Source of the DNA: Bacillus nitratireducens
Lineage (GTDB): Bacteria; Bacillota; Bacilli; Bacillales; Bacillaceae_G
Reading direction: 5' to 3'
NCBI RefSeq assembly: GCF_001884135.1
Contig: NZ_MAOC01000007.1
Location: 62,001-126,000, forward strand
Length of the DNA: 64,000 bases
Numbering within the stretch: position 1 is the stretch's first letter; each line of letters begins with the position of its first letter. Shown piece by piece: positions 32,547-38,811 of this stretch. The position numbers were made by a program, and so were the translations under genes. The notes under the pieces are model-generated. The model worked only from the letters and a program-made list of their open reading frames with translations. It was not told where the DNA came from and did not search any database.

Positions 32547-32577
32547 ATCCCTTACATCCTTTGTTACACACTTTTCC

Positions 32578-32646
32578 CCTCATAGTCTAGCAATTCATGG
32601 TTGCCAGGTAGAAACTTATGGACCTTATCTCCAAGATTATATGAGG
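32578..32646 (-). ncRNA. Guanine-class purine riboswitch aptamer
   Basis: On the minus strand CCTCATA and TATGAGG form the closing P1 stem. Between them are the conserved purine-riboswitch elements: TATAATC after P1, the J2/3 segment AAGTTTCTACC, loop L3 with AACCATGAA, and GACTATGAG at the end. The base before TATGAG that sets specificity is C, as in guanine aptamers, not T as in adenine aptamers. A promoter lies just upstream and a terminator just downstream. It controls the ymfC-nupNOPQ operon, so guanine or hypoxanthine would shut off transcription. Confidence 0.92.
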
Positions 32647-32666
32647 CAGTGATTCTTTTCGAAGTA

Positions 32667-36530: not shown

Positions 36531-38201
36531 TTATACTTCCATAATAATCGGTAAAATCATTGGCTTTCTCTTCGTTTCTTCGTACAAGAACTGCCCTAAT
36601 AATTCACGAATATTTTGTTTTAACATAGACCATTCAATTGAATATTCTTTAATAGATTGTTCAACAATCATACGTACAATATCTGTAGATCGCTCGATCA
36701 ACGCTTCTGATTCACGTACATATACGAAACCACGTGAAATAATTTCTGGACCAGAGATAATTTTCTTTTCATCTTTACCAAGTGTCACAACAACAACTAA
36801 AATTCCATCTTGAGATAACATCTTTCTATCTCGAAGAACAATATTACCAACGTCGCCAACACCTAATCCATCAATTAAAACATTGCCAGCTTGCACTTTA
36901 CCAACTAAGTTTGCTTCTTCATCGCCAAAAGCAATTACATCGCCTTTTTCTACAATAAAGATATTTTCTCTCGCAATACCTACATCTTCCGCTAAATATG
37001 CATGTGCTTTTTGCATACGGAACTCACCATGTACGGGTACAAAATACTTCGGCTTCATTAAATTTAACATTAGTTTTAACTCTTCTTGGCTACCGTGACC
37101 TGAAACGTGTACTTTTCTTTCACCATAATAAATAACCTCAGCCCCAGATCTAAATAACAAGTCAATAATTTTTGATACAGATATTTCATTTCCTGGAATT
37201 GGTGAAGCTGCAATAATAACCGTATCACCTTTACGAATTGAAATTTGTTTATGAGCTTGCTTCGCCATTCTAGAAAGGGCTGCCATCGGTTCCCCTTGAC
37301 TACCTGTCGTTAAAATAGCTACCTTTTTCTCTGGGAAATTGTCTACTTCTTGTAATGAAATAACCATACCTTCTGGAACATCTAAATAACCAAGACGTCT
37401 TGCAATGTCTACTACTTTCACCATACTACGTCCTACTACCGCTACTTTTCTTCCTGTTTCAGCAGCCGCATCAAATACTTGTTGAATACGATGTACATTT
37501 GATGCAAATGAAGCAACGATAATACGACCTTCTGCACCGTAGAACACTTTAGAAATTTCTACACCAACTTCTTTTTCCGAACCTGTGTAGCCTGGACGCT
37601 CAGCGTTTGTACTATCAGATAATAAGCAAAGTACGCCTTCATTTCCGATTTGCGCCATTTTCCCAAGATCTGCTCCATTATTTCCAATTGGAGTTTGATC
37701 AAATTTAAAGTCCCCTGTATACACTACAGCACCTTTTGATGTATGGAAACAAACACCAACAGAATCCGGAATACTATGTGTCGTTCCAAAGAATGACACC
37801 GTTGTAGTATTAAAATCTACTGTTGAATTTGAATCGATTGTTTTTAAGTCTACACGGCCTAACATGCCCGCTTCGCCAAGTTTTTCTTGTATAAGTCCTA
37901 CTGTTAATTTCGTTGCATACACTGGAATAGATAATTTACGAAGTACATAAACAATTCCACCAATATGATCTTCATGACCGTGAGTAATAAATAAACCTTT
38001 TACTCGCTCTTGATTTTCCACTAAGTATGTAATATCAGGAATAACGATATCAATTCCAAACATTTCATCTCCTGGGAACATTAATCCTGCATCTACAATA
38101 AAGATTTCAGAATCAATTTCAACACAGTACATGTTTTTCCCGATTTCACCTACTCCACCAAGAGCAAATACTTTAACAGACTCATTCTCTTTTCTCTTCA
38201 T
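36531..38201 (-). CDS. rnjB: Ribonuclease J2
   Basis: RNase J proteins are metallo-beta-lactamase ribonucleases with 5'-3' exonuclease and endonuclease activity; J1 and J2 form a complex. The 556-residue protein shows the catalytic motif THGHEDHIGG, the metal ligand region YTGDFKFD, the beta-CASP motif VHVSGHGSQEELKLM, and the C-terminal end KRKPMILPIIMEV. Its position between dapA and tepA identifies it as rnjB. All residues of the HxHxDH motif are present, whereas the B. subtilis J2 motif is, as I recall, degenerate. The leader is structured and has a poor ribosome-binding site, AGG 8 bases before the ATG. Confidence 0.9.
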   Translation of the reverse strand: MKRKENESVKVFALGGVGEIGKNMYCVEIDSEIFIVDAGLMFPGDEMFGIDIVIPDITYLVENQERVKGLFITHGHEDHIGGIVYVLRKLSIPVYATKLTVGLIQEKLGEAGMLGRVDLKTIDSNSTVDFNTTTVSFFGTTHSIPDSVGVCFHTSKGAVVYTGDFKFDQTPIGNNGADLGKMAQIGNEGVLCLLSDSTNAERPGYTGSEKEVGVEISKVFYGAEGRIIVASFASNVHRIQQVFDAAAETGRKVAVVGRSMVKVVDIARRLGYLDVPEGMVISLQEVDNFPEKKVAILTTGSQGEPMAALSRMAKQAHKQISIRKGDTVIIAASPIPGNEISVSKIIDLLFRSGAEVIYYGERKVHVSGHGSQEELKLMLNLMKPKYFVPVHGEFRMQKAHAYLAEDVGIARENIFIVEKGDVIAFGDEEANLVGKVQAGNVLIDGLGVGDVGNIVLRDRKMLSQDGILVVVVTLGKDEKKIISGPEIISRGFVYVRESEALIERSTDIVRMIVEQSIKEYSIEWSMLKQNIRELLGQFLYEETKRKPMILPIIMEV

Positions 38202-38465
38202 GTTGTTGCCTGGTTTAAAAATCTTGCAAACACTGATTTCACTAAAATTGTAGAGACACCAGGGGAAACTCTACAACCACCATATATTCACCGTCCAAGA
38301 CGAATGTCCTTACCGTTATGCGATATCATGTCCTTGTTTATTTTTTAAACCAGGTTTCACCTCTCTTTCATTATATAAATCAAATATCTTATTCGATATG
38401 ATATGAAAATTTCATTGAATCATAATTTTTCCCAATTTTGCTAAGCATACCCGTACTAAGCTACT
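38202..38465 (-). promoter_or_regulatory. Structured 5' leader of rnjB
   Basis: The leader of about 260 nt carries an inverted repeat on the minus strand, CCTGGTTTAAAAA at 38354-38342 and TTTTTAAACCAGG at 38221-38209, a perfect 13-bp stem closing a 120-nt domain. Inside are a perfect hairpin TTGTAGAG/CTCTACAA with a 13-base loop and a smaller AGGAC/GTCTT hairpin. The 3' arm contains the only ribosome-binding-like bases (AGG) before the ATG, so closing the stem should block translation. The regulator is unknown. A further GCTAAG/CTTAGC hairpin lies near the transcript start. Confidence 0.6.
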
Positions 38466-38472
38466 TAGCCAT

Positions 38473-38502
38473 ATTATACCTGATACAAGAAATAGAACAC
38501 AA
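38473..38502 (-). promoter_or_regulatory. Probable promoter of rnjB
   Basis: On the minus strand TTGTGT, 18 bases, then TATAAT gives a plausible sigma-A promoter about 265 bases before the rnjB start, which defines the long leader. Confidence 0.55.
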
Positions 38503-38776: not shown

Positions 38777-38808
38777 AAAAATGACCTAGTTTCACACTAG
38801 GTCATTTT
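38777..38808 (-). terminator. Terminator of dapA
   Basis: AAAATGACCTAGT and ACTAGGTCATTTT form a perfect 13-bp stem with a 5-base loop just after the dapA stop. An A/T tract follows on the minus strand. Confidence 0.88.
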
Positions 38809-38811
38809 TTA

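Follow-up and report, generated by a model that had tools for sequence, protein, structure and literature searches.

The closest described counterparts of the arrangement considered here are the translation initiation sites of T4 genes 38 and 25. In the accessible text of the T4 review, structure between the Shine-Dalgarno (SD) sequence and the AUG is described as shortening the distance between them from 22 nt to 5 (gene 38) and from 27 nt to 11 (gene 25); destabilising changes lower initiation at these genes, and the split sites covered there have short hairpins (PMC3014915). A second point of reference is provided by the bcr repeats, which the accessible portions of their descriptions characterise as 100-400 bp long, specific to the B. 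cereus group, and transcribed in about half of their copies (PMC6542083, PMC3446304); low-copy bcr families are also mentioned there (PMC6542083 / PMC3446304).

The leader of rnjB in the window, the whole 64,000-nt stretch of DNA that was analysed, has a strong SD that is separated from the start codon by a large predicted RNA domain. With a confidence only slightly better than even, this is read as a split ribosome-binding site, its two halves held apart by the domain and joined by its closing stem, P1; the closed stem would enable translation. The relevant features are given below from the promoter to the gene, with SD strength, here and throughout, as predicted pairing with the 16S 3' end in kcal/mol.

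38473 to 38502, minus strand: conserved promoter, TTGTGT (38502-38497), 18-nt spacer and TATAAT (38478-38473), a pattern shared with relatives.
38450 to 38466, minus strand: promoter-proximal block AAGTAGCTTAGTACGGG, a diverged copy of the relatives' AAGTGACTTNGTNCGGG and the probable 5' end of the transcript, which would start near 38466.
38427 to 38436, minus strand: decayed position of the nearest relatives' SD (GGAGG there, GGGAA here), located by alignment; 16S pairing -4.2.
38357 to 38368, minus strand: strong SD AAAGAGAGGUGA, core GAGGUGA at 38363-38357, which pairs with the 16S 3' end more strongly than any other site of the leader (-13.2).
38342 to 38354, minus strand: 5' arm of P1, CCUGGUUUAAAAA, with predicted pair probabilities of 0.74-1.0.
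38222 to 38341, minus strand: 120-nt interior of the domain, in the predicted fold containing P2 (38336-38320 with 38242-38227), P3 (38316-38290) and P4 (38278-38269 with 38255-38246).
38209 to 38221, minus strand: 3' arm of P1, UUUUUAAACCAGG, from the inverted repeat and the predicted fold.
38202 to 38208, minus strand: spacer CAACAAC between P1 and the AUG, as read from the sequence.
36531 to 38201, minus strand: coding sequence of rnjB (RNase J2), 556 aa, with its ATG at 38201; full-length relatives are 79-80% identical.

On the minus strand, the gene order around rnjB is asd, dapG, dapA, then rnjB, a ClpP-like gene and spoIIIE, with names assigned from the protein sequences. DapA matches PDB entries 3hij and 1xky/1xl9, which are presumably from B. 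anthracis, over its full length, and 4 residues of 292 differ in the 3hij alignment. The window is taken to be part of a chromosome like those of the B. cereus group, distinct from the source of these entries. A terminator-like hairpin with a T run (38777-38809, minus strand) lies 3' of dapA and separates it from rnjB. The rnjB ATG at 38201 is the first ATG, GTG or TTG past the preceding in-frame stop, and the sole start found in the SD comparison; an internal start at 38132 with an SD-like stretch (-8.8) was rejected, as it would delete the conserved GGVGEIGKNM. Besides rnjB, no minus-strand open reading frame of at least 20 aa was found in the leader; two 13-codon minus-strand frames, 38329-38288 and 38283-38242, were read by eye within the domain.

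The two arms, CCTGGTTTAAAAA (38209-38221) and TTTTTAAACCAGG (38342-38354), are perfectly complementary and 120 nt apart, as the earlier note on this DNA had stated; P1 comprises 13 perfect base pairs on the minus strand (38354-38342 with 38221-38209), for a hairpin of 146 nt in total. Two nucleotides separate the end of AAAGAGAGGUGA from the first arm, and the second arm ends 7 nt before the AUG; the distance from GAGGUGA to the AUG is 155 nt in the linear sequence versus 9 nt with the stem closed (12 if counted from GAGG). The earlier note had considered an AGG in the second arm to be the only SD-like bases of the leader, and had proposed a stem that conceals the ribosome-binding site. The first of these views was not confirmed: the AGG pairs weakly with 16S rRNA (-2.5), GAGGUGA is the leader's best 16S match, and the 12-mer that starts one base earlier than AAAGAGAGGUGA reaches -15.1. 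The second found no support either, with the strong SD just outside the stem and a poor one within it; the predicted geometry rather favours the opposite sign, with a closed stem making the SD adjoin the AUG. No ATG, GTG or TTG lies within reach of AAAGAGAGGUGA, which is followed by CTG-GTT-TAA, the next ATG being 27 nt downstream.

Apart from P1, no perfect inverted repeat in the 64-kb window reaches 13 bp with arms 50-200 nt apart; over 100 Markov shuffles the mean number of such repeats was 0.19 and the maximum 1. In a stricter test with at least 5 G/C per arm, 0 were observed versus 0.04 expected, and the P1 arm with its 4 G/C was not counted. Of 20,000 shuffled leaders, two contained a 13-bp stem that ended 3-12 nt ahead of the start, neither of them with a strong SD just before the first arm; a 10-bp stem before the start arose 93 times, once with such an SD. 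In the predicted fold, the outer pairs of P1 have probabilities near 1, and keeping the first arm unpaired costs about 14 kcal/mol. The 170-nt stretch around P1 has a folding z-score of -3.3 (2 of 200 shuffles equally good), as does a stretch including the promoter region (0 of 100 shuffles equally good); the part upstream of the element has a z-score of -0.2, and the 120-nt interior by itself one of -1.2, with 28 of 200 shuffles as good and no clear excess of structure. As far as these predictions go, the structural signal is the closing stem. The 8-bp hairpin and the smaller one that the earlier note had seen inside the domain both recur in the predicted fold, where P4 forms a hairpin of 10 pairs with a short U run, AUUUUAG, on its 3' side. 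The domain also contains a second SD-like site, of about -11.4, in front of the 13-codon frame at 38283-38242, and a leader peptide may be made. When the whole predicted transcript is folded, the predicted probability of being unpaired is 0.29-0.95 for the SD and 0.29-0.41 for the AUG, parts of which are often paired elsewhere in the leader.

The rnjB leaders of 98 relatives were compared: the best 80 of at least 583 loci from genome contigs, taken as putative orthologues, and 18 of 30 loci from the Ectobacillus family, to which the L001 genome belongs; the other 12 family loci (L106-L117) have 55-57% identity, are probably paralogues and were excluded. Among the loci listed, no rnjB is closer than 80% identical to that of the window, and for this reason no B. 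cereus-group genome is believed to be among those searched. An adjacent linear SD of -10.2 or stronger is present in 98 of 98 relatives versus -2.5 for rnjB in the window, whose arrangement therefore looks derived. The gap after GRGG spans 6-13 nt in 97 relatives (6 in two, 7 in 19, 8 in 37, 9 in 18, 11 in 19, 12 in one and 13 in one), with the gap nearest 8 taken where several were possible; L093 had no GRGG. In the nearest relatives (L088, L089, L090 and L092), GGAGG follows the -10 box at about 40 nt, with the start codon another 7-8 nt on; the window aligns with these leaders up to their SD, and then continues for about 220 nt without counterpart before its ATG. Within the window, SDs weaker than -8 were found in two other minus-strand frames out of 45 open reading frames (-6.4 and -4.0) and in one plus-strand frame that is probably spurious (-1.5), under the generous choice of allowing the best start within the first quarter of each frame; a weak linear SD is unusual here, not unique.

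The promoter pattern, defined as TTG(T/C)NN, 15-20 nt, a TATAAT-like box and an AAGT-like block 4-8 nt beyond, occurs upstream of rnjB in 74 of the 98 relatives versus 7 of 1960 shuffles, and is present in the window from 38502. A generic promoter scan did not report this promoter, because its -35 box is weak and matches at only 3 of 6 positions. Since the conserved promoter lies upstream of both P1 arms, both are very probably transcribed, and the P1-like closing stem that the earlier note had seen at the rnjB start is supported; a transcription start downstream of the first arm, which the note had named as contrary evidence, is unlikely with the promoter in this position, the start itself being placed only by estimate. 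The rnjB promoter together with the first transcript bases (TTGTNT, TATAAT, AAGTGACTNGGTNCGG) is common to many Bacillales, as judged by the 74 of 98 matches to a loose pattern. The promoter-proximal block, with one mismatch allowed, was found in 7 of 19 family genomes, in at most one copy per genome.

If the site is split, the 16S 3' end would pair with AAAGAGAGGUGA just upstream of the 13-bp stem, and P1 would close over the 120-nt domain, leaving CAACAAC-AUG just downstream; closure would shorten the SD-AUG distance from 155 nt to 9 nt and so permit initiation, and opening of P1 would leave the SD apart from the AUG and lower translation. Sequence and computation establish the two arms, the SD and the spacings, together with the absence of a strong linear SD here and its presence in 98 of 98 relatives; we infer that P1 folds in vivo, that ribosomes initiate from the SD across the closed stem, and that anything acts on the interior. 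The case is built on one sequence, and the effective gap of 12 counted from GAGG speaks against it, being at the long end of the range (12 or more in 2 of 97 relatives). Further points against it are the frequent predicted pairing of parts of the SD and the AUG, the size of the domain, which greatly exceeds that of the T4 hairpins, the interior's folding at little better than shuffle level, and the second SD-like site of -11.4 inside the domain. The interior of the domain may be loop filler only, or it may be responsive to something. It appears rather unlikely that the domain is a sensor between SD and start, in which a ligand, a protein (perhaps RNase J) or a nuclease acting on the interior would set the closure of P1 and thereby the assembly of the site. 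Such a device would resemble a riboswitch, but one that acts by joining SD and AUG and not by masking the SD; feedback by RNase J is possible.

The element has no match in Rfam at gathering score, and none on its own strand up to E = 5, in agreement with the earlier note that no known class was recognisable; the whole window yielded at gathering score (Rfam 15) only a purine riboswitch elsewhere, an aptamer of that known class at 32563-32664 on the minus strand (78.7 bits). No tRNA-like structure was found in the element. Homologues of the element were found neither by DNA search in 19 genomes of the Ectobacillus family and 397 genomes of the order nor with a single-sequence model in the 397 order genomes; these searches had no positive control, and scoring in the order was confined to 2 (DNA) or 7 (model) first-look candidates from each genome, which makes them weak negatives. 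In the titles and abstract openings of the open-licence literature searched, no B. cereus rnjB leader element was found. A 19-base pattern comprising the first arm and its neighbours led to 28 viral-contig stretches and was rejected as a sign of homology; blastn matched the leader there over 19-27 nt and left the rest of the element unmatched. The 19 bases CCTGGTTTAAAAAATAAAC recur in all these viral stretches (L118-L145), many of which are similar over 27 nt at a single site; they may belong to a coding region conserved within one group of viruses, and no relation to the leader was seen.

The reading closest to the original proposal, that P1 occludes initiation by blocking the AGG and the ribosome footprint until a signal opens the stem, has several points in its favour and is nevertheless unlikely. 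The footprint of the initiating 30S subunit covers the position 7 nt before the AUG, where the second arm ends; the predicted stability of P1 is very high; and in Paenibacillus a predicted long-range stem covers the SD of the same gene. Once freed, however, the AGG would pair at just -2.5, and strong linear SDs occur in all relatives; AAAGAGAGGUGA, two bases outside the stem, would be left without a role, there being no ATG, GTG or TTG close enough for it to serve. The split site is preferred over this reading.

That the 146-bp stretch is instead an inserted MITE-like element, perhaps a B. cereus bcr repeat, which came to lie between SD and start and plays no regulatory part itself, is quite improbable; it would be in keeping with the roughly 220 nt missing from the nearest relatives, with the 13-bp terminal inverted repeats, and with the size, group specificity and frequent transcription of bcr repeats (PMC6542083, PMC3446304). 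Against insertion, no target duplication is present at the element ends, and a search of the 64-kb window for the 13-base arm with 2 mismatches gave 4 matches, as many as chance would produce; searches of plasmids and phages yielded no copy of the element, all matches there (four plasmid records and one phage) being short, and plasmid records carrying the rnjB region had no match to it. Insertion and split site are compatible, as an inserted element may have been tolerated because it folds. A further idea, site-specific inversion of the 120-bp segment, was set aside. Very improbable is a leader that serves as a site of processing, attenuation or leader-peptide synthesis, in which P4 and AUUUUAG would terminate transcription early, a nuclease would cut the domain, or translation of a 13-codon frame would affect the fold. 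The 10-pair hairpin of P4 with its short U run, the -11.4 site before the frame at 38283-38242, and the autoregulation of RNase Y via its own mRNA, as reported in the accessible text of PMC10303841, are consistent with one or another of these roles; yet P4 is not among the sites of the terminator scan (its loop exceeds the length allowed there), its U run is short, and the strong SD 2 nt before P1 would go unexplained.

The rnjB leaders of Paenibacillus (L154-L181, about 360 nt) have a predicted long-range stem between UAAUCUUCC near the 5' end and GGAGGGUUA, the SD itself. They were gathered from 86 matched genomes out of 245, with 30 loci, of which 28 were aligned in full length (alignment A5) and are 69-100% identical to the L042 leader. 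The stem is nearly invariant, with 27 or 28 of 28 leaders agreeing at each pair (27 of 28 at the first pair), a pattern that in these sequences is conservation, not covariation; elsewhere in the leaders, 7 of 61 predicted pairs show a double change. The same SD stem appears in the fold of 10 other loci; an outer helix at the start codon, UAAGUGA with UCAUUUG, was seen in the 28-leader fold only and not in the 10-locus fold. Conserved blocks GCGCGAGGGGCGCG and CAGCGCCGCT lie inside the stem, and neither L154 nor L181 has an Rfam match. This SD-covering stem is close to what the earlier note had proposed for the window, but belongs to a different family. Common to both leaders are a related promoter block and, 3' of it, a long-range stem predicted at the start of rnjB; in Paenibacillus the SD itself is one arm, whereas in the window the stem lies between SD and AUG, and no sequence relation between the two was seen. 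Two lineages are thus predicted to form a long-range stem where rnjB begins, each with its own layout.

If the split site is real, it makes production of an enzyme of mRNA decay depend on whether its own leader is intact, and it reverses the prediction of the earlier note, such that breaking the stem should lower and not raise expression; annotation that seeks SDs only in the last 20 nt before a start codon misses such sites.

Among known systems, translational riboswitches resemble the rnjB leader in having a P1-like stem that closes a branched domain near the start codon; unlike these, the leader has no Rfam match, and because its SD lies outside P1, the expected sign of regulation is reversed. 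In SD-occluding leaders the functional SD is found inside the stem; here the strongest SD (38368-38357) is outside. With bcr repeats and MITEs, as far as the accessible descriptions go (PMC6542083, PMC3446304), the element shares the size range, the terminal inverted repeats and the location in a 5' leader; it differs from them in showing no target duplication and no second copy in the 64-kb window. The T4 sites described in the accessible text of PMC3014915 were tested by mutation and probing, whereas the rnjB case is known from sequence and prediction; in both, the linear SD-AUG distance is too long (for rnjB 155 nt after GAGGUGA, with no strong linear SD), and structure in between restores a working distance, in rnjB a predicted gap of 9 or 12 nt compared with 6-13 nt in 97 relatives. 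In T4, and apparently in rnjB, the arrangement is derived in one lineage, with relatives that lack it. The T4 spans of 27 and 22 nt contrast with 155 nt and a multi-helix domain in the leader of a bacterial housekeeping gene; a 146-nt domain between SD and AUG would, if true, show how large a spacer structure the initiating ribosome tolerates.
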